DNA of 64,000 nucleotides, taken from assembly GCF_012720115.1 (NCBI RefSeq), contig NZ_VNWN01000002.1:620001-684000 (forward strand), read 5' to 3'. Made by a program: the position numbers and the translations under genes. This document shows, in pieces, positions 43,507 to 53,629 of the stretch (its first letter is position 1; each line of letters opens with the position of its first letter). The notes beneath the pieces were generated by a model, which saw only the letters and a program-made list of their open reading frames with translations, did no database searches and was not told the DNA's origin. The DNA comes from Sneathiella chinensis. GTDB taxonomy: Bacteria > Pseudomonadota > Alphaproteobacteria > Sneathiellales > Sneathiellaceae.

Positions 43507-44544
43507 TCAGGAATGTTCCAGAGTGAGACGGGTGCGTCTCAGGAATTCCGGTGGGTTGGAGAGTTCCGGGTTTGGCCGAATTCCGATGAACCCACCTTTC
43601 TGGAACAGCCTGACAGGCCGGTCCATCCGGGTTTCCAGACTGATTTCGCCGCCTTCCATCAGGAACGATTTCCATTCTTCCGAAACGCTTTCGGCGACAG
43701 ACGGACGGATACTTCCCTTCTCAAGAACCGTGAGCATATGGCCCTGTGCGGTCGTCGCAAGCTGCTCCCGGAAATCGTCCGGCTCGGCCGGGGTGAGCAG
43801 GTCCAGTTCCTTGCTGGCAAAAACCCTGTCCAGTAGGCCGTCATCGGTGAAGGAGGCCTCAAGATGGGCCAACTCCACAATGCGGGTGCTGTCGATAACG
43901 GCCTGCAGGTCTTTCATGTTGCCCCGAAACAGGGTTTGAAGAATATTGCCATCCTGTATCAGATTGGCGGCAAGGGGGGCGCCAGTTTCCCACAGCCGTG
44001 CGGCATCGGTCCGTTCAAGGGCGACCTTCATGGCGATGTCCCCAAACTCGGGCGCCTCACCGGTCAATGCCAGATCAACGCTGGAGGCTTCCAGGTCAGC
44101 CGTGAACGACACCGACAGGTCAACTGTCAGGTTCTGGTATCCGGCATAGAGGATATAATTTGACCAGTACCGTGCGGGACAGCGGATGCTTGAACATTTT
44201 CGGGCAACGTCCAGGACCGGTAGTGTCGCGGATGATAATTGGACCGTTGCTTCGGTCAGAAACTCATCCTCAAATGCAAGGCCAGTGAGCCGGGCGCTTT
44301 CAATATCGACGGGAACTTGCCCGAAAGCATCGTGATACAGGGTCACATCCGACAGGGTTGTGGCGCCTGTTAGGACATTGTGGGACACCGTTTCATATCG
44401 GATATAGGTGTCCAGTTTCCATTGGTACAGCGCGTCTTCCACCGCCCGTTTTGCCTGACCCGAGGCATAGTGGTTCAGGCCGGTAATGCCCGCGATCAGC
44501 AGGCCGGAGATACCAAGACCGGCAAAGAGGAATTTTTTGTTCAT
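43507..44544 (-). CDS. membrane-anchored periplasmic protein of unknown function
   Basis: I do not recognise this 345-residue protein with certainty. It has an N-terminal membrane anchor (residues 5-25) and a long beta-rich part; the segment YETVSHNVLTGATTLSDVTLYH resembles the DUF945/AsmA-like envelope proteins. Two cysteines, C117 and C122, sit in KCSSIRC and could form a disulfide in the periplasm. It is the last gene of a three-gene operon, overlapping the preceding gene by 4 bp. Translation coupling suggests a shared job in the cell envelope. Confidence 0.75.
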   Translation of the reverse strand: MNKKFLFAGLGISGLLIAGITGLNHYASGQAKRAVEDALYQWKLDTYIRYETVSHNVLTGATTLSDVTLYHDAFGQVPVDIESARLTGLAFEDEFLTEATVQLSSATLPVLDVARKCSSIRCPARYWSNYILYAGYQNLTVDLSVSFTADLEASSVDLALTGEAPEFGDIAMKVALERTDAARLWETGAPLAANLIQDGNILQTLFRGNMKDLQAVIDSTRIVELAHLEASFTDDGLLDRVFASKELDLLTPAEPDDFREQLATTAQGHMLTVLEKGSIRPSVAESVSEEWKSFLMEGGEISLETRMDRPVRLFQKGGFIGIRPNPELSNPPEFLRRTRLTLEHS

Positions 44545-46379
44545 TGGTCAGTCTTCGAAGGGGCCTGGATCGGTGTGTCGATCAATTCCGGATAGGCATG
44601 GTCCATAAGGTATTGCAGGTCTTCCGCCTCCCGGCAGCGTTCTTGCGTGCAGATAACGACCGTGTCAGCCTCTACCGCCACATCAAGGGCAAGGTCCAGA
44701 TCGGCTTTCGGGGCTGTATTCGTGGTTTCCAGATTTCCCTTAATCAGCATCCAGTCTCCCTTTTTGGGTGCCTCTGGCAGTCCCTCCGGCAGGGTGATGG
44801 TTATGGGGCGGGGCCAGTTGGCTGTGGCAATCGGTCCGTCCATATCCGAAAGACGAACCATCAGTTTGGTCTGCCGCGTCCCGTCATCGACCAAGCTGTG
44901 CGAGATTGTCTCTGACAGGGAAGGCATGTGGAAAGAGCGGTCAAGATAGAAGGCCAGACGGGCCGGATAGCCACCAAGTTCGAGCCTGTTGCTCAATGTG
45001 TCTTGCAGTTCTCGTAAGGCCGCCAGCTCCTTTTCCTTTTGTACTTTTTCCTGCTGAGCCCGTTCCTCTTCTGCAGCTTTTTCCCTCGCGATCCGCTCTT
45101 GTTCCTCGCGCAGGCGGATGGCCACAACCCTGCTGTTGATGTCTTCTTCCGTAAAGGTGTGGAGGAGTTGTTTGCGACCCTCATCCGCATAGACCTTCAG
45201 TTCCAGAATTTTGAGGTCCAACTTGCCGTATCCATGACGATAGTTATAGTGAGCCCGCGAATTTGCTTCTACAAGGTCAATTCTGTCAATTCTGACAAGA
45301 TAATGGGTATAGACTTTTCTCCCATACTTTTTCTGCGCGACCAGCGTCTCGGCCTTTTGCCGGGACAGGGGAAGTTCTGTGATAATGGGCGAAGGAAGGG
45401 CATCCTGCCTGAAAATCTGAGGATATGTACCAGAGGACGCGTTAATATTGCATGCTAGTCTTGGGGGGGCATACTGCGCAGAAAATTGGCCTCCGAATGA
45501 CACGGGAAAAACTTCTTTTCCAAAGTCGTAGGACTTAAATTTTTCAGAATAGAAATAGGTTGCATAGATCGGGGTTGAGATCAGGTTTTCCTGTAAATCT
45601 GCCTTTGCCGCGTCCAGATACGCCCGAAGATCAAACTCGTTATCTTTTGTCTTACGATAGCGGCCGCAGTTCCACTGTCTTGCATAGTTCCGGATATCCC
45701 CGTCATTTGCCAGCAGGGCCGGGTTGTCGCCAAAGAATTTACGCACCAGTTTCAGGGTTTTGATCGGCTCAGCCGTATTCCAAAAGTTTTCAATCTCCCG
45801 CTGCCGGGGGGAGAGGGCGGCCATTGTCGGGCTGTCCTGATCGTTTTCAGATGTGCCTGATGCCTCGGCTGTGCTGGCAGGGTCAGCGATTGCTGTGGTA
45901 GCGGGGGCAGGGCTCTCGGACGCTTTGGGAGTGTCAGACGTGTCGGGGGTGGCAGTCACGGTGGGGGTGCCTGATGCCTTGGCCATGTTGGCGGGGGCAT
46001 CGGCGGTGGCGGCAGGTTTCCAGCCATCGGCGGCCTTGGCATTCCCCTGAAAGAGGGGCTGTGCCATATTTTCTGCAAGACCGGTGACCGTGGCCGTTTC
46101 CGCGTCGGGGCATTCCCGATCGATGATCTGTCCGACCTTCGGCAGGAAGGATGGGAAGGTCTCCCCTTCAAAGAAGGTGGGGTCCTTGGCGCGGACTGTG
46201 ACTGACAGGTCTTTTCGGCACCATTGCCCGTCCCGGACATCCATTTCGATGGAGACACCCAGTTTGGATGACTTGGCAAAGACATGTGTGGGGGGCGTAT
46301 CGGCGGAGGCCGCCGGGGACACCAGCCCTCCGAAGAGGGCGAGTGTCACGCCAAGGGCGCGAAGAGGGGGCCTGGTCAT
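44541..46379 (-). CDS. large exported protein of unknown function with Thr/Ala/Pro-rich region and coiled coil
   Basis: This 612-residue protein is not recognised. It has a signal peptide (cleavage probably after ASA near residue 26), a folded N-terminal part, a low-complexity Ala/Thr/Pro-rich stretch (about residues 120-185), a middle domain, a charged coiled coil (about 400-455, REEQERIAREKAAEEE and on) and a C-terminal beta-rich domain. Its start overlaps the lipoprotein gene stop by 1 bp and its stop overlaps the next start by 4 bp. The tight packing with a lipoprotein and an anchored protein suggests an envelope-spanning assembly. Confidence 0.75.
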   Translation of the reverse strand: MTRPPLRALGVTLALFGGLVSPAASADTPPTHVFAKSSKLGVSIEMDVRDGQWCRKDLSVTVRAKDPTFFEGETFPSFLPKVGQIIDRECPDAETATVTGLAENMAQPLFQGNAKAADGWKPAATADAPANMAKASGTPTVTATPDTSDTPKASESPAPATTAIADPASTAEASGTSENDQDSPTMAALSPRQREIENFWNTAEPIKTLKLVRKFFGDNPALLANDGDIRNYARQWNCGRYRKTKDNEFDLRAYLDAAKADLQENLISTPIYATYFYSEKFKSYDFGKEVFPVSFGGQFSAQYAPPRLACNINASSGTYPQIFRQDALPSPIITELPLSRQKAETLVAQKKYGRKVYTHYLVRIDRIDLVEANSRAHYNYRHGYGKLDLKILELKVYADEGRKQLLHTFTEEDINSRVVAIRLREEQERIAREKAAEEERAQQEKVQKEKELAALRELQDTLSNRLELGGYPARLAFYLDRSFHMPSLSETISHSLVDDGTRQTKLMVRLSDMDGPIATANWPRPITITLPEGLPEAPKKGDWMLIKGNLETTNTAPKADLDLALDVAVEADTVVICTQERCREAEDLQYLMDHAYPELIDTPIQAPSKTDQ

Positions 46380-47263
46380 TACAGAATCTCCCAGGCACCA
46401 TCCGTTGCTTTACAGGCGGTGAAGCTGTCTTGCCCCTGTTTGTCGCCCTTTTTGGAGGTAACCTCAAGGTCCCGGCATGTGGTGGCAACCTGAACCTCTT
46501 CGGCAATCAGGCCCTCGGCATCCAGATCAATGGGCTCACCAAGGCTGTCCTGACCTTTGCCTTCTTTCTCCAGCTTGGCGGCATTTTCTGCGAAGGTTGA
46601 CTGGTTACGAATTGCCGGTGTGGGCGCAGCCTCGGCGACGGTTGCAGCCGCGGGAGCTTTCTCCACAAGGGGCTCATAGACAAAGCCGACGGTCCGGTTG
46701 TTTTTGGCAACGACAATCCACGGCTTGCCCTCGACCCGGCCAACCGCATTGAAGCGTTCCTGCTCTTGCAGGCTGCCGACAATTTCGGCGTCGGTTGACG
46801 GAGATTTACGGATGTTCGAACTTTTCAGGGAGTGATATTCTTCGCCCAGCAGGGTCAGCGGGGGCATTTCGGAAATCCGCCGGTCGCGATAAAGGGTGAC
46901 TGTCTTCGTTTCTTGGCGTGTATTGACGGTCTGAATTTCGGCTTCAGCGCCTGTTTTCGGGCTGTTCCAGACGATCTTCTGGCCGTCCTCGCTCTTCTCA
47001 AGGGCGGTTGCGGTTTCAGCTTCGACGGCGGCCTGTTCCTGCTCATCAAGGATCTTGCCAAGCTGGTTGCCGATATAGGCGCCGGCAAGGGTCCCGATGG
47101 CCGTGCCCACCAGTTGCCCGGCGCCTTTTCCAAATTGCGCCCCGATGATGGCCCCGCCTACGGCGCCGAGAACAGTTCCGAATGTTTCGCCGGAATTGGT
47201 TGTCTGGCAGCCAGACAAGACCGCAGTTGAAATCAGGAGGGCGGCAACAGCTTTTTTCGACAT
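46379..47263 (-). CDS. lipoprotein with glycine-zipper and SH3-like domains
   Basis: This 294-residue protein starts with a lipoprotein signal whose lipobox is LSGC (Cys19). A glycine-zipper segment follows (about 28-66, FGTVLGAVGGAIIGAQFGKGAGQLVG in parts), as in outer-membrane 17-kDa antigen-type proteins, then a charged linker, a bacterial SH3-like domain (about 148-200, NIRKSPSTDAEIVGSLQE) and a C-terminal domain with two cysteines. ATG 47263 has AAGGAAA upstream. It leads the three-gene envelope operon. SH3 domains of this type bind peptidoglycan, so it may tie the outer membrane to the wall. Confidence 0.82.
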   Translation of the reverse strand: MSKKAVAALLISTAVLSGCQTTNSGETFGTVLGAVGGAIIGAQFGKGAGQLVGTAIGTLAGAYIGNQLGKILDEQEQAAVEAETATALEKSEDGQKIVWNSPKTGAEAEIQTVNTRQETKTVTLYRDRRISEMPPLTLLGEEYHSLKSSNIRKSPSTDAEIVGSLQEQERFNAVGRVEGKPWIVVAKNNRTVGFVYEPLVEKAPAAATVAEAAPTPAIRNQSTFAENAAKLEKEGKGQDSLGEPIDLDAEGLIAEEVQVATTCRDLEVTSKKGDKQGQDSFTACKATDGAWEIL

Positions 47264-47658
47264 GCTTTTTCCTTGCTTACCGGTTAGGAATTGAATTTTC
47301 TTCACTAATAATCCAAATAGTTGAAATTAAACAATAAATTTAATTTATCTAAAATTTTACAGACAGGGGCGCGAGGGAGCGGGGAAAGGCGGAGGGGAGC
47401 GGTCCGGCGGTGTTGATTCGGGCTTTTTTGGCTGCCGCATAGGTTGTGGATGTGTTTATTTAACATTTACCTAAAATTGTATTATTTAATAAAATCAATA
47501 TTTAGTAGTGCGGATGTTTGCTTTACACACGTTATAGTAATTTAATCGCTAAAGCTGTTGTTTTGTAAATTTTAACAACTTTAACGCTTGTTTTTCGGTG
47601 CCGATTTTGGAATGTTTTTCAGGACGAGCAGGGATCGAATGATAAAAGGGGAGTTGAT
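47264..47658. other. AT-rich intergenic region with a G-rich core
   Basis: This 395-bp gap contains the promoter side of the envelope operon. It is AT-rich except for a G-rich stretch at about 47362-47415. I see no gene, repeat or clear promoter match in it. Confidence 0.8.
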
Positions 47659-48032: not shown

Positions 48033-48626
48033 ATGATGACGGACACAGCGGACAGGTTAGAGATATACAGGGCACGGGCCGTTGGAACGAACGTCAATGA
48101 ACGATCGCTATTGGCGACCGATTACCTGAACCATTTCAACGAAGCCCTGATGCTGGCCGAACTGGTTCTGGACATGCCGGATATGATCGATGAATTTCAG
48201 GAATGGCAGCCGCGCCCCTATAAGGAACATTTCAGGGGCAGCGGCATCGCGGACAGGGAATTGGCGATTGAAGCCTATGACATTTCCCCGCCGGAATACC
48301 GGCAGGCATTTGACACCATTGTCAAAATGTTGAATAAGCAGATACTGTATTTGCAAAGACTGTTTAAGGAAGAGCGTGCCGCGTTGGAGGCCGGGAAACC
48401 GGTGGCGTTGTTACCGGCAAAATGCGCCCTGATCCGGCAACTGATTGACCGGGCGGCTGCGGTGATCAACGGTCATGTGAAAGAGGTCGCCCCGATTGCC
48501 GGAGGGCAGGACGCACCGAACGGGGAAGCAAGGGTGGGCGCGGAGGCGCCTCGGAACACATCCCGGCACGTCGCAGCGGAAGGAGAGACGCTGGATCAGT
48601 CGGATATTGACGCCTTGTTCAGTTGA
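48033..48626 (+). CDS. helical protein with C-terminal FliM-like DIDALF tail
   Basis: This 197-residue protein has a helical main part (residues 1-150; conserved-looking LLATDYLNHFNEALMLAELV and SPPEYRQAFDTIVKML), a flexible Ala/Gly-rich linker, and the last residues LDQSDIDALFS (187-197). That tail resembles the FliM N-terminal peptide that binds CheY-P, and similar tails end some CheZ-like proteins of alphaproteobacteria. I do not recognise the main part. It heads a co-directional cluster with DUF922, PilZ and receiver proteins, so a role in motor or chemotaxis control is inferred. ATG 48033 and ATG 48036 are both possible starts. Confidence 0.7.
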   Translation: MMTDTADRLEIYRARAVGTNVNERSLLATDYLNHFNEALMLAELVLDMPDMIDEFQEWQPRPYKEHFRGSGIADRELAIEAYDISPPEYRQAFDTIVKMLNKQILYLQRLFKEERAALEAGKPVALLPAKCALIRQLIDRAAAVINGHVKEVAPIAGGQDAPNGEARVGAEAPRNTSRHVAAEGETLDQSDIDALFS

Positions 48627-48654
48627 GCAGGGAAAGAGGAAAGGGGCGATCCGC

Positions 48655-49371
48655 ATGCTGCGAGCGCCGAGAGGAACGGGGACAATAACAGCGGGACTTT
48701 TGGCCGGGATGATGGTTCTGGGCGGGGGGACGTTGGCGCAGGCTTCCACGGCGGCCTTTGGCAACACGGACCGGGCGTGTCTTGCCTCCTTTCAGAAGCC
48801 GGAGACAGGGCTGGCCCGAAAATCGGTTGAAACCACCATCAATAACAAAAAAAGTTCTTCGGAAATAAAGACCTTTGCCCGCAGCGTTGATGGCTTCAAG
48901 CCGTCCGCCAAGGGCCGGCAACTGGGGCTGGCGCATTCGCGTTTCGCCTATAATCTCAGAATTCAACTGGCCTCGAAACGGATTGAAGGCAGACGCTGTT
49001 TCGGGGTCCGCAAGGTGGGCGTTGAACTGGCCCTCGTCCGCTCTGAAATCTTCATCGACAAGAAATACCGACCGGGCAGTTGTGCCTATAAGGCAATTCT
49101 GGCCCATGAGCGGGAACATGTGGCGATCAATGAGCGGGTCTGGGACCAGTATAGCAAACATATCGAGGCGGAGGTGGCCCGGTTGGCGGCGGACATCAAG
49201 CCGTTCTATGGCAGCCGGTCCGACAAGGCATCGAAAATGGTATCGGAACGGCTGTCCCGGGAATTGAAACCCTTGCTGGATCAGGTCAACGAAACGCGTG
49301 CCGAGGAAAACAGCCGGATCGACAGCGAAAAAAGCTATCGGGAGGTCCGCGCCCGATGTGTGCACTGGTAA
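48655..49371 (+). CDS. DUF922 family secreted protein with HExxH motif
   Basis: This 238-residue protein has a signal peptide (hydrophobic at about 13-28, cleavage near AQA/STA at residue 30) and the DUF922 pattern of predicted zinc-dependent proteases. The HExxH motif is at residues 151-155 (AHEREHVAIN) with a following glutamate at 160. C143 lies just before it. The start ATG 48655 has AGGAAAGG upstream. It is 28 bp after the FliM-tail gene. Activity is unproven for the family as a whole. Confidence 0.82.
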   Translation: MLRAPRGTGTITAGLLAGMMVLGGGTLAQASTAAFGNTDRACLASFQKPETGLARKSVETTINNKKSSSEIKTFARSVDGFKPSAKGRQLGLAHSRFAYNLRIQLASKRIEGRRCFGVRKVGVELALVRSEIFIDKKYRPGSCAYKAILAHEREHVAINERVWDQYSKHIEAEVARLAADIKPFYGSRSDKASKMVSERLSRELKPLLDQVNETRAEENSRIDSEKSYREVRARCVHW

Positions 49372-49468
49372 TCAGGGCAACCGGGAGTTTACAATTCTTT
49401 TAGGGTATTGCCTGTATGATTGCCAAAGTGGGGCCGGCGAAGGCCTCGTCGGAGAGTGGGAAAAGCCT

Positions 49469-49876
49469 ATGACGATCGGTCCGGATATCAAGGGATTGTT
49501 GGATGAACTGGAGGCGCGGCAGGCGGCGGTGGAAGCCGCAGCCACAGACACTGCGCCCTATTCGGAAAACAGACGCTATCGCAGGAGCCGGGTTGTCTGG
49601 GAGGCCCGCCTGAAAATGTCCTTGCAGGACGTGACATTGCGCAGCAGGATCACCGAGGTGAAAGGGGTTGTGCGGGATGTGTCGGCCAACGGCGCCCGTG
49701 TGGACCTGTTTGGCGAACTGGATCTGGAGGCGGACCTGGAAATGATCCTGCCCAGTATTGCCACGTTCCCGTGCAAGGCTGTCTGGGCAAAGGGGCAACA
49801 GGTCGGGCTTCAGTTCAAGGACAGCCCGGATCAGGTCTATCAGGCGATTTCAAGAGTGTTTACCGGTTTCAAGTGA
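49469..49876 (+). CDS. PilZ-domain protein (c-di-GMP binding)
   Basis: This 135-residue protein has a PilZ domain at about residues 33-130. The c-di-GMP contact residues are present: the arginine-rich RxxxR part (R35/R36 to R39 in NRRYRRSR) and D70-x-S72-x-x-G75 in DVSANGA. An N-terminal 30-residue helix precedes it. PilZ proteins of this kind change motor speed or cellulose synthesis on c-di-GMP binding. It lies between DUF922 and receiver genes, 9 bp before the latter. Confidence 0.88.
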   Translation: MTIGPDIKGLLDELEARQAAVEAAATDTAPYSENRRYRRSRVVWEARLKMSLQDVTLRSRITEVKGVVRDVSANGARVDLFGELDLEADLEMILPSIATFPCKAVWAKGQQVGLQFKDSPDQVYQAISRVFTGFK

Positions 49877-49885
49877 TGACGTGAG

Positions 49886-50887
49886 ATGGAAGACAGGCGA
49901 TTTCAAAAAGCCTCTGTGCTGCTGTATGATCCTCAGTCGACCATGCGTTACAATACCCGTGTCGCGTTACTGCATATGGGCTTTGGGGATGTGGAAGCGG
50001 TCAGTGACTTCAACGAGTTTCTGCACAAGGCCAGCACCGGCAGTTATGATCTGATCATCGGCGATACCCGGGAAGGCGGCGGAGATACCTGCAGCATTGT
50101 CCGCGATATCCGGCAGAGCCAGGTTGGCAAGAACCCGTTCGTCAATGTGATTGTCACCCTTTGGGATACCAGCCCGGACCTTGTCAACGAGGTGATCGGG
50201 TGCGGTGCGGATGACCTGATCAGCCGCCCCATGTCGGAAGCCCAGTTGCGGGACCGGATTTCCGGCCTGATAACGGCCCGCAAACCCTTCATCGTGACCA
50301 AGGATTATATTGGCCCGGAGCGGCGTCAGATTGTCCGGGGGTTGTCCTCGACCCCGCCCATGGTGGTCCCCAACTCCCTTCAGGCCAAAGCCGAGAACCG
50401 GCCCGAGATGGATGCCACGCCGGACAATATCAAGCTGGCCCTTGAGGCGGTCAACGAGCGGAAAATCTCCATTTACACGGAACAGTTCCTGCGGGGATCG
50501 GCCCGTATTCTCAACCTGCCGGAAACGCTGGAAGGGCTGGATGAACGCCAGATACTGGTGCGGGACATGTTGAAAATGAACGAGGATCTGGCGGAACGCT
50601 TAAGCGGCGATGCGTTCGCCCATGTTGTGGTGCTGTGTGATGCCATGCGGGACTTGTTGCGGCGTATTCTGGGATCGGCCAGTCCGTTGCAGGAAATGCA
50701 GAAGGAGTTGCTGCTGCAAATCCCGTTTGCCATTCACAAGGCCTGTAAGGATGCGCGGGAGTCGGCGGAAATGGCGTTTGATATCGGGGCACTGTCGGAA
50801 CAGTTGAGGGAGGCGGGCTCCCTTGAGGGTAAAAAGAGGACCGGGGCGGATCGTCGCCAGTCTTCGGATGCGGATGAGGTTGTTTGA
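49886..50887 (+). CDS. atypical response regulator with C-terminal helical domain
   Basis: This 333-residue protein has a receiver domain (residues 10-130) with phospho-acceptor D60 (LIIGDTRE), switch T91 (VTLWDT) and a C-terminal helical region (about 180-310). The receiver is degenerate: only one acidic residue follows strand 1 (D15, then Pro), and the usual lysine is R114 (ISRPMS). The segment KPFIVTKDYIGPERRQ between the domains recurs in related alphaproteobacterial receivers. No DNA-binding domain is seen. It is 9 bp after PilZ and likely acts with it. Confidence 0.85.
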   Translation: MEDRRFQKASVLLYDPQSTMRYNTRVALLHMGFGDVEAVSDFNEFLHKASTGSYDLIIGDTREGGGDTCSIVRDIRQSQVGKNPFVNVIVTLWDTSPDLVNEVIGCGADDLISRPMSEAQLRDRISGLITARKPFIVTKDYIGPERRQIVRGLSSTPPMVVPNSLQAKAENRPEMDATPDNIKLALEAVNERKISIYTEQFLRGSARILNLPETLEGLDERQILVRDMLKMNEDLAERLSGDAFAHVVVLCDAMRDLLRRILGSASPLQEMQKELLLQIPFAIHKACKDARESAEMAFDIGALSEQLREAGSLEGKKRTGADRRQSSDADEVV

Positions 50888-51027
50888 CGCAAGGGACAAC
50901 TTGTGTTCTGTTGGGGTAACGAGTGGCGCCAGCCTGTACGGTGATCATTCGATCGACATAATTATTTGATAGGCAAAACCTGTTGGCTGGGAACGCAACG
51001 GGTTACGGGAAAGTCAGGGGTAGTAGA

Positions 51028-52053
51028 ATGTTTTTTCAAGGGTTTCAAAAGCGGACAGGAAGTCTCCTTCTTTCCCTGCTGGTGCTGTTGTTTTCCCAGT
51101 CCCTTGTTTTCGCCCAGGATGTTACCTTCTTTCGGATCGGAACCGGATCCACATCGGGAACCTATTTCCCCATCGGAACGCTGATCGGGGCGACCATCAC
51201 AGGCCCGCCCGGCAGTCGCCCCTGCGAGGATGGCGGGTCCTGCGGTGTACCGGGCCTGATTGCGGCGGCCCAAACCACGCGGGGGTCTGTCTCGAATATT
51301 CTCGGGGTTCTGGATGGCAGTCTGGAAAGTGGTCTGGCGCAGTCCGATCTTGTCTATGCCGCCTATCACGGCGAGGGGGTCTTCAAGGACAACAATGCTG
51401 CCCGGGATCATTTGCGGGTGATCGCCAACCTGTATCCTGAGGATGTACATCTTGTGGTGCGGAAAGACAGCGGCATCAAGACAATCGCCGGGCTGAAGGG
51501 CAAGCGCATTTCCATCGATCTGGCCGGATCGGGAACCCGCGAAAATGCCAGGGCCATCCTGTCGACCTCCGGCATTTCCGAGGCAGACTACACAGCGGTG
51601 GAAACCAACCCGGACAAATCCGTGGACATGTTGCTGAACGCGGAACTGGACGCCTTTTTCTTTGTTGCCGGCTATCCTGTATCGGCCATCGAAGAGCTTG
51701 CGGAAATCGGGGCCATCGACCTGTTGCCGCTGGAAGGGGTCAGTGCCGACAAAATCCTGAAAAAGTACCGGTTCTTCTCGAAAAGCACGATCCCCGAGGG
51801 GATCTATCCGGGCATTGGCAGGCGGAACACCCTTGCGGTCAGTACCCAATGGGTGGTGAACGCCGATATGGATGATGAACTGGTCTATGGGTTGACCAAG
51901 GCTCTGTGGCACCCAAGAAACCGGGTGCTGCTGGATAGTGGCCATGCCAAGGGAAAGCTGATTCACTATGAAACCGCCCTTGACGGGATTGCAACGCCGC
52001 TGCATCCCGGCGCCAAGCGCTATTATGATGAGCATCCCCTAGACGGTCAGTGA
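51028..52053 (+). CDS. TAXI-family TRAP substrate-binding protein
   Basis: This 341-residue protein has a signal peptide (hydrophobic 11-28, VFAQ end) and the TAXI pattern: FFRIGTGSTSGTYFPIGTLIG, then LKGKRISIDLAGSGTRENARAIL. TAXI proteins feed TRAP transporters fused to a 4TM-12TM permease; no such permease gene lies near. It may work with a remote permease or as a sensor. ATG 51028 has AGGGG upstream. Substrate is unknown, glutamate-like acids being typical. Confidence 0.88.
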   Translation: MFFQGFQKRTGSLLLSLLVLLFSQSLVFAQDVTFFRIGTGSTSGTYFPIGTLIGATITGPPGSRPCEDGGSCGVPGLIAAAQTTRGSVSNILGVLDGSLESGLAQSDLVYAAYHGEGVFKDNNAARDHLRVIANLYPEDVHLVVRKDSGIKTIAGLKGKRISIDLAGSGTRENARAILSTSGISEADYTAVETNPDKSVDMLLNAELDAFFFVAGYPVSAIEELAEIGAIDLLPLEGVSADKILKKYRFFSKSTIPEGIYPGIGRRNTLAVSTQWVVNADMDDELVYGLTKALWHPRNRVLLDSGHAKGKLIHYETALDGIATPLHPGAKRYYDEHPLDGQ

Positions 52054-52234
52054 GGGTATGGAGCGGTTGTGGCTGTGCTTTTCGCAGCCTGTCCGCCCGA
52101 AATGATCTGAGGGCGGGCCGTGTCGGTTTAGCCTGTGCGAGAGGGGATCGGGTAAAAAAAGCGCCTGCCGAACGGGCTCATACTCTAATTGGTTGTCCGT
52201 TCGCCCGGCCTTTGATAGTTTTTTAAAAAACGCC

Positions 52235-53629
52235 ATGGAGACACCCGTGATCCCTTTTATTTCGCAATTTGATGATATTTCTACTGTTCCGATTTCCATC
52301 GTTCAGGCGGATGCCTTTGATGCCTGGCGGGAGGGGCAAAGCGAGCGTGACAAAAACTGGATCGCCGCCAACCGGTTCGAGGGGAAGGCCGGGACCCAGT
52401 TGTGCCTGCCGGGGGATGATGGCAGTGTGGCCAGTGTTGTCTGTATCCGGGACAAGGACACATGGGATATCTGGTCGTTGGCGGACCTGCCCGCCAACCT
52501 GCCGCCGGATGTCTATCATCTGGATGTGTCCCTGACCGATGAGGAAGCAACCAATGTGGCCATTGGCTGGTCACTGGCGACCTATGTGTTTGATCGGTAC
52601 AAGGCGGCACCGAAACGCTTCGCCACCTTGCGCCTGCCGCTGAACGCCGATGCGGATCAGGTGGCGCGGACGGTCTTTGCCACCAATCTTGCCCGTGATC
52701 TTGTCAATATCCCGACCGGGGATATGGGGCCGAAGGCTCTTGAATCCGCCGCGTCCCAGATTGCCGCCGAATTCGAGGCCCGTCAGATCAACGTGGTGGG
52801 CGATGACCTGCTGACCTATCACTATCCCATGGTGCATGCCGTGGGCCGGGCAGCCGATCAGGCGCCCCGCCTGATTGACATGGTTTGGGGCGATGCGGAT
52901 GCGCCGAAGGTGACACTGGTTGGCAAGGGTGTCTGTTTCGATACGGGCGGGCTGGACCTGAAACCGTCCTCGGCCATGTTGCTGATGAAGAAGGATATGG
53001 GCGGGGCGGCCATGGCGCTGGGCCTTGCCTACATGATCATGGATGCGGGACTGCCCGTGCGCTTGCGGGTCCTGATCCCGGCAGTTGAAAATTCGGTGTC
53101 GTCCAATTCCTATCGGCCCGGTGATGTGCTGACCAGCCGGTCCGGCAAAACCGTCGAGATCGGCAATACGGATGCGGAAGGGCGGCTTGTTCTGGCCGAT
53201 GCACTGACCGCCGCCGGCGAGGAAGAGCCGGACCTGCTGATTGATTTCGCCACCCTGACCGGGGCTGCCCGTGTGGCCGTTGGCGAGGAAATCGCCGCCA
53301 CCTTTACGGATGATGAGGACCTTTTTGACGCCATCCGACGCCACGCAGAGACGGAAAAGGATCCGGTCTGGCGGCTGCCTTTGTGGTCTGAATATCGGTC
53401 CATGATCGACAGTCCCATTGCGGACCTCAACAATTCCGGCAGCAGCCCCATGGGCGGTGCCATTACCGCGGCCCTGTTCCTGAAGGAATTTACGGCAAAG
53501 GCGAAGTCATGGGTTCATTTCGACATCATGGCCTATAACAAGCGGGCCCGTCCGGGCCGCCCCGTCGGCGGGGAGGCCTTTGCCATCCGCGCCATGTTCG
53601 CCCTGCTGCGCGAGCGTTACGGACGATAG
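52235..53629 (+). CDS. M17 leucyl aminopeptidase family protein
   Basis: This 464-residue zinc aminopeptidase removes N-terminal residues from peptides. The metal- and active-site segments are LVGKGVCFDTGGLDLKP (about residue 228), KKDMGGAAMALGLAYMI, and the signature NTDAEGRL (311-318). It looks like the shorter PepA-like paralogue found in many alphaproteobacteria. The start is unsure: ATG 52235, or an in-frame TTG at 52193. It has its own terminator and stands near ghrA. Confidence 0.9.
   Translation: METPVIPFISQFDDISTVPISIVQADAFDAWREGQSERDKNWIAANRFEGKAGTQLCLPGDDGSVASVVCIRDKDTWDIWSLADLPANLPPDVYHLDVSLTDEEATNVAIGWSLATYVFDRYKAAPKRFATLRLPLNADADQVARTVFATNLARDLVNIPTGDMGPKALESAASQIAAEFEARQINVVGDDLLTYHYPMVHAVGRAADQAPRLIDMVWGDADAPKVTLVGKGVCFDTGGLDLKPSSAMLLMKKDMGGAAMALGLAYMIMDAGLPVRLRVLIPAVENSVSSNSYRPGDVLTSRSGKTVEIGNTDAEGRLVLADALTAAGEEEPDLLIDFATLTGAARVAVGEEIAATFTDDEDLFDAIRRHAETEKDPVWRLPLWSEYRSMIDSPIADLNNSGSSPMGGAITAALFLKEFTAKAKSWVHFDIMAYNKRARPGRPVGGEAFAIRAMFALLRERYGR

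Follow-up and report, generated by a model that had tools for sequence, protein, structure and literature searches.

The locus studied here raises the question of whether a protein that ends like the CheY-binding tip of FliM, encoded in a row with a PilZ-domain protein and a degenerate receiver, acts on the flagellar motor or on chemotaxis and, if so, by what means. The row, here called P1 to P4, lies in the window, the whole stretch of 64,000 nucleotides of Sneathiella chinensis DNA that was analysed, and a first-pass annotation had described it as four co-directional genes forming a possible motor-control module. The four open reading frames are indeed present on the forward strand (Table 1), with gaps of 28 bases between P1 and P2, 97 between P2 and P3 and 9 between P3 and P4, and they may be transcribed jointly. 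The source assembly (3.55 Mb) is 99% complete, and 23 other Sneathiella genomes were available.

Table 1. Features of the locus and CheZ homologues of the same genome. Positions are those of the window unless a handle precedes them; P1 residues are numbered from the second Met (48036).
Feature	Coordinates	Strand	Description
Divergent pair upstream of P1	44541-47305	-	Glycine-zipper/SH3 lipoprotein-like gene (46379-47305) and DUF4852-containing protein (44541-46379)
P1	48033-48626	+	ORF, 197 aa; helical protein with putative C-terminal CheY-docking tail
P1 signature LATDYLNHFNE	48111-48143	+	D29 (48120-48122) and N32 (48129-48131), candidate D-x-x-N phosphatase pair; helix 28-46 of the AF2 model
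P1 tail LDQSDIDALFS	48591-48623	+	Putative CheY/receiver docking motif; genome-wide pattern; Q188 kept in relatives
P2	48655-49371	+	ORF; signal-peptide-like start; HEREH at 49105-49119
P3	49469-49876	+	ORF; PilZ-domain protein
P3 PilZ motifs RxxxR and DxSxxG	49571-49585 and 49676-49693	+	Both invariant in 11 orthologues
P4	49886-50887	+	ORF; degenerate receiver and predicted four-helix domain
P4 linker RKPFIVTKDYIGPERR	50279-50326	+	Single [Y/F]xGP[D/E][R/K]R motif of the Cle type, with an upstream Arg
TAXI-type solute-binding protein and M17 aminopeptidase	50983-53629	+	3' of P4, order conserved
CheZ homologue	L195:7590-8243		FQDITGQ and docking tail
CheZ homologue	L194:9742-10410		FQDITGQ and docking tail
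CheZ homologue	L196:4847-5608		FQDITGQ and docking tail

The whole 3.55-Mb genome was searched for the tail pattern Q-x-[DE]-I-D-x-[LF]-[LF], written as degenerate DNA, with the reversed pattern as a control. The pattern occurred at 6 sites, as against 0 for the reversed control, and these corresponded to P1, FliM, three CheZ homologues and one antisense site; within the window, the strict motif occurred once in six frames, in P1. The sixth site was rejected as a docking motif, its frame running antisense to a synthase-like open reading frame of >1000 aa. The FliM of this genome carries LNQDEIDSLLG and its three CheZ proteins end in SQDDIDALLASFD, IDQDDIDALFS and ISQAEIDALFD, so the resemblance to the FliM tip that had first drawn attention to P1 is a motif common to its own FliM and all three CheZ homologues. 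Because the sites other than the antisense one are FliM, CheZ and P1, the motif appears to mark CheY partners in the Sneathiella genome. This genome-wide pattern is the strongest single result of the analysis, and on sequence grounds the tail of P1 is not a product of chance. One of the CheZ homologues (L195) has two tail-like segments, DQNFVDEMF and DQDDIDALF.

A scan of genome contigs with the single P1 sequence found no relative, whereas a profile scan with the Sneathiella alignment found at least 581 P1-related stretches, the best 80 of which include Azospirillum, Magnetospirillum, Thalassospira, Kiloniella, Nisaea and Terasakiella. Across 119 non-redundant members, D29, Y30, N32, W57 and Y62 are invariant (119/119) and P59, H65 and F66 nearly so. 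Conservation of the tail in orthologues, on which the earlier reading depended, was borne out: its Gln is identical in 116 members, its Ile is I or V in 118 and its Asp is D or N in 116. The 116 of 119 for Q188 is an alignment figure, while a loose pattern, which also accepts the doubtful tail of genome G089, recovered 115 of the 119 tails. Among 39 members (P1 and 38 relatives), we found no curated Pfam or NCBIfam family, only scattered weak matches; only one of eleven Azospirillum plasmid records with a P1 gene annotates it, as a hypothetical protein, and no description of the family was found among the titles and abstracts listed from an open-access library. Some relatives have two docking motifs at the C-terminus (GQDEIDTLL and SQADIDALF in L145, AQSEIDDIL and SQADIDALF in L069, DQAEIDDIM and DQSAIDSLF in L070), and a 125-aa open frame of the family in G283 (L173, TVDQESVDALLDL) seemingly lacks the C-terminal part of the core and keeps the docking tail.

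The AF2 model of P1 consists of a confident helical core at residues 1-149 (block means 85-98, with 142 residues of the model at pLDDT >= 90), a disordered linker and a tail that forms a short helix, and a helical wheel places D29, N32, H33 and E36 on one helix face. Comparison of the model with the PDB by Foldseek and VIA-align returned generic helical bundles only, none of them a confident match (best Z 8.4, rmsd 4.0 over 109 residues), and the absence of CheZ from the structural matches listed is uninformative about a shared CheZ fold. Searching PDB sequences with the profile of P1 likewise gave only unrelated helical proteins, the best being a designed bundle (E 0.0017). By hhalign, P1 showed no homology to the helical domain of P4 (probability 0.1).

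Outside the four-gene row, the host genome encodes three CheZ homologues, five CheW matches and FliM, and since CheZ is already present three times, P1 would be an additional protein in this host. Neither P1 nor any of the 38 relatives matched PF04344 (CheZ), and a scan of the genome with the CheZ model at E<=1 recovered the CheZ genes, three in number, along with weak stretches at other sites, with P1 not among the matches. When the P1 and CheZ profiles were aligned by hhalign, only the C-terminal end matched (IIHG...QxEIDxL against LLNGP...QDDIDxL, probability 83). Thus, P1 appears to share with CheZ the docking module and not the catalytic core. The CheZ-type C-terminal CheY-docking peptide is present in P1 at the sequence level; the catalytic D-x-x-x-Q motif (D143 and Q147 in E. 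coli), found as FQDITGQ in the three host CheZ proteins, is absent from it, and by these comparisons P1 is not a CheZ.

Both CheZ and CheC/CheX act on the receiver by placing an acidic side chain, together with Gln or Asn, in its active site (PMC3035606), and the invariant D29-x-x-N32 on a helix of P1 would, by analogy, fit this acid-amide chemistry. We tentatively suggest, at less than even odds, that P1 represents an additional structural type of phosphatase acting on receiver aspartyl phosphate, a D-x-x-N helical bundle that would be widespread in Alphaproteobacteria beside CheZ, have only the docking tail in common with it and be connected to c-di-GMP in Sneathiella by the PilZ protein P3 and the Cle-like receiver P4. 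The same tail and conservation data apply to a P1 that is not an enzyme, whose tail would sequester or tether CheY or Cle, lowering the pool of free active receivers or placing them at a site, with D29, N32, W57 and Y62 as a pocket for another partner. That the host already has CheZ enzymes, that the invariant W57 and Y62 and the nearly invariant P59, H65 and F66 are as binding-site-like as active-site-like, and that some relatives have two tail copies all agree with such a protein. However, an invariant helical D-x-x-N followed by a docking tail exceeds what a simple sponge would need, and we consider this alternative unlikely.

Of the 23 other Sneathiella genomes, 19 gave a P1 match and the remaining 4 are 56-86% complete; in all 19, P1 is followed contiguously by P2, P3 and P4 in the same order, one of these loci being on a short contig. 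On contigs that extend far enough, genes for the TAXI protein and M17 peptidase come next, and these probably have functions separate from those of P1-P4. By tblastn, neither gene of the divergent pair upstream of P1 was matched in the Sneathiella loci retrieved for P1. Neighbourhoods of P1 and P4 relatives were read with a codon-bias filter on open reading frames. Outside Sneathiella, P1 loci gave no match to window P2-P6, except for one distant receiver-domain match in L044; the neighbours of P1 there are housekeeping or sensor-kinase/cyclase genes, and no che or fli genes adjoining P1 were seen in the loci read. Conservation of all four genes across Alphaproteobacteria, a possibility raised in the first-pass annotation, is therefore not supported: they were seen together in Sneathiella only, and elsewhere P1 is found without P2-P4. 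Some P1 genes outside the genus have a signalling gene, histidine-kinase-like or containing GAF, nearby (L072, L107 and L122; clusters of 15 and 12 among 80 loci). P4 relatives in other families have assorted neighbours and occur alone or in tandem pairs; adjacent pairs of P4-like receivers with YxGPxRR were seen in alphaproteobacteria of different families (L209, L214 and L221).

Co-occurrence was examined in 289 alphaproteobacterial genomes, 57 with P1 and 232 without. CheZ was found in 52 of the 57 genomes with P1 compared with 63 of the 232 without it, CheW in 52 compared with 93, and FliM in 50 compared with 118. By family, CheZ was found in 32 of 35 P1 families and in 40 of ~115 others (150 families in all), a control for phylogeny that is partial, being at the family level and for CheZ only. 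Seven P1 genomes have no FliM match. One of them (G067) has FliG, so FliM is probably absent from the assembly. Without FliM and FliG, the P1 tail is lost in G168 and degenerate in G208 and G089, and it is kept in G283, a congener of G208 that has both; G137 and G294, in which FliM/FliG are missing and CheW and CheZ are present, also keep it. The main exception is G127, where P1 and its tail are kept and none of FliM, FliG, CheW and CheZ was detected. This genome would be accounted for if P1 docked a non-flagellar receiver, such as a DivK-like or other single-domain regulator, with the flagellar association a lineage effect, and the housekeeping or sensor-kinase/cyclase surroundings of P1 outside Sneathiella also agree with such a partner. 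Nevertheless, the P1 tail is of the same kind as those of its own FliM and CheZ, the association with CheZ is strong even at the family level, and the tail was lost or decayed in G168, G208 and G089, all three of which lack FliM and FliG; we regard a non-flagellar partner as distinctly improbable. Control of the motor or chemotaxis, as first proposed for the row, is a well-motivated hypothesis, given the tail motif, the way P1 tracks CheZ, CheW and FliM across the class, an intact PilZ domain and a Cle-like half-motif in P4; any physical link between the parts is one that we infer.

The other members of the row bear on how such control might be exerted. P2 is probably secreted, and its HExxH motif is invariant in 11 orthologues; its earlier assignment to DUF922 did not hold, since P2 itself had no PF06037 match at E<=1 and only 3 of the 11 orthologues matched, below the curated cut-off (best E 0.03), which makes it DUF922-like at best. 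The PilZ domain of P3 proved intact as described (PF07238, E 8e-9, with both motifs conserved), and the description of P4 as an atypical receiver with a helical effector domain also agrees with our results: the receiver matched PF00072 (E 1.5e-9), its model superposed on CheY structures (best Z 17.9, rmsd 2.1 over 120 residues), and four helices are predicted, with moderate confidence, at residues 179-297. In ten aligned Sneathiella sequences (the window and nine congeners), Arg replaces the conserved Lys throughout and the acceptor Asp, kept in the window, is Glu in five, so control by phosphorylation is questionable for some of the genus. Caulobacter Cle proteins bind c-di-GMP via a tandem [Y/F]xGP[D/E][R/K]R motif with flanking Arg, and they bind the LSQxEIDxLL motif of FliM, its CheY site, with no requirement for phosphorylation (PMC5677366). 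P4 resembles them in a respect unremarked in the first-pass annotation, as its linker seems to carry half of the Cle c-di-GMP motif: the Cle-type tandem is flanked by Arg and Asp, and P4 has one copy only, plus the upstream Arg. The least variable stretch of P4 among 32 relatives from many families is RKxFxVTxxYxGPxRR...PN, with R132, F135, Y141, G143, P144, R146, R147, P162 and N163 identical in all 32. P3 and P4 are both likely, from their motifs, to be sensors of c-di-GMP.

One explanation for the constant gene order is that P1-P4 are functionally unrelated and stay together through low rearrangement in one genus, which is compatible with any reading of P1. The TAXI and M17 peptidase genes likewise keep their order, relatives of P1 and P4 live apart elsewhere, and P2 would leave the cytoplasm by secretion. 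On the other hand, P1-P2 and P3-P4 lie close together on one strand, the gene order is retained even where P1 has diverged to 45-50% identity, and P1, P3 and P4 all suggest a common theme (c-di-GMP, CheY and the FliM motif). We give unrelated neighbours an appreciable chance, though one short of even.

Considered as a whole, the locus would be best explained, with a probability of roughly 0.5, by a CheZ-like P1 in a row modulated by c-di-GMP. P1 would be an auxiliary chemotaxis or motility protein, CheZ-like in action, whose C-terminal helix docks a CheY-type receiver on the face that binds FliM and whose helical bundle acts on the docked receiver, most likely by removing the phosphoryl group with the acid-amide pair D29 and N32. 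Docking of CheY-type receivers is the most likely part of this proposal, and their dephosphorylation is put forward with less certainty. In Sneathiella, P3 and the Cle-like P4 would provide two likely c-di-GMP inputs beside P1; P4, whose type is known for competition with CheY over this motif, could compete with CheY for the P1 tail and for FliM, so that c-di-GMP would modulate motor switching. Because it combines a putative CheY-docking tail with a conserved row containing two likely c-di-GMP sensors, P1 probably tunes swimming behaviour. P1 is a protein without a family name in hundreds of alphaproteobacterial genomes, including that of the plant-growth-promoting Azospirillum brasilense. If it binds or dephosphorylates CheY, chemotaxis models for alphaproteobacteria with multiple CheY proteins lack one of the components, and in Sneathiella c-di-GMP and CheY signalling would come together in one compact row of genes.

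Among known systems, CheZ (PF04344) has, like P1, a helical build, a flexible linker and a docking peptide, Q-x-(D/E)-I-D-x-L-(L/F), at its C-terminus, and the two keep the same genomic company; however, CheZ has F-Q-D-x-x-x-Q where P1 has D-x-x-N, and the P1 core cannot be aligned with that of CheZ. The CheC/CheX/FliY phosphatases use an acid and Asn pair, as proposed for catalysis by P1, although P1 is predicted to be all-helical and no sequence relation to them was found. The peptide pattern of the FliM CheY-binding motif (LSQxEIDxLL) is common to P1 and FliM, but in FliM it is N-terminal, whereas in P1 it stands at the C-terminus of a protein that is not FliM, a position closer to that of the CheZ docking peptide. 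As in Cle of Caulobacter (CheY-like, with a C-terminal ARR), a receiver in P4 is followed by R...YxGP(E/D)RR, and its degenerate phosphorylation site would fit Cle-like, phosphorylation-independent action. Cle has a tandem motif pair, in contrast to the single copy and extra four-helix domain of ~120 aa in P4, and for this reason we describe P4 as Cle-like rather than as a proven Cle.
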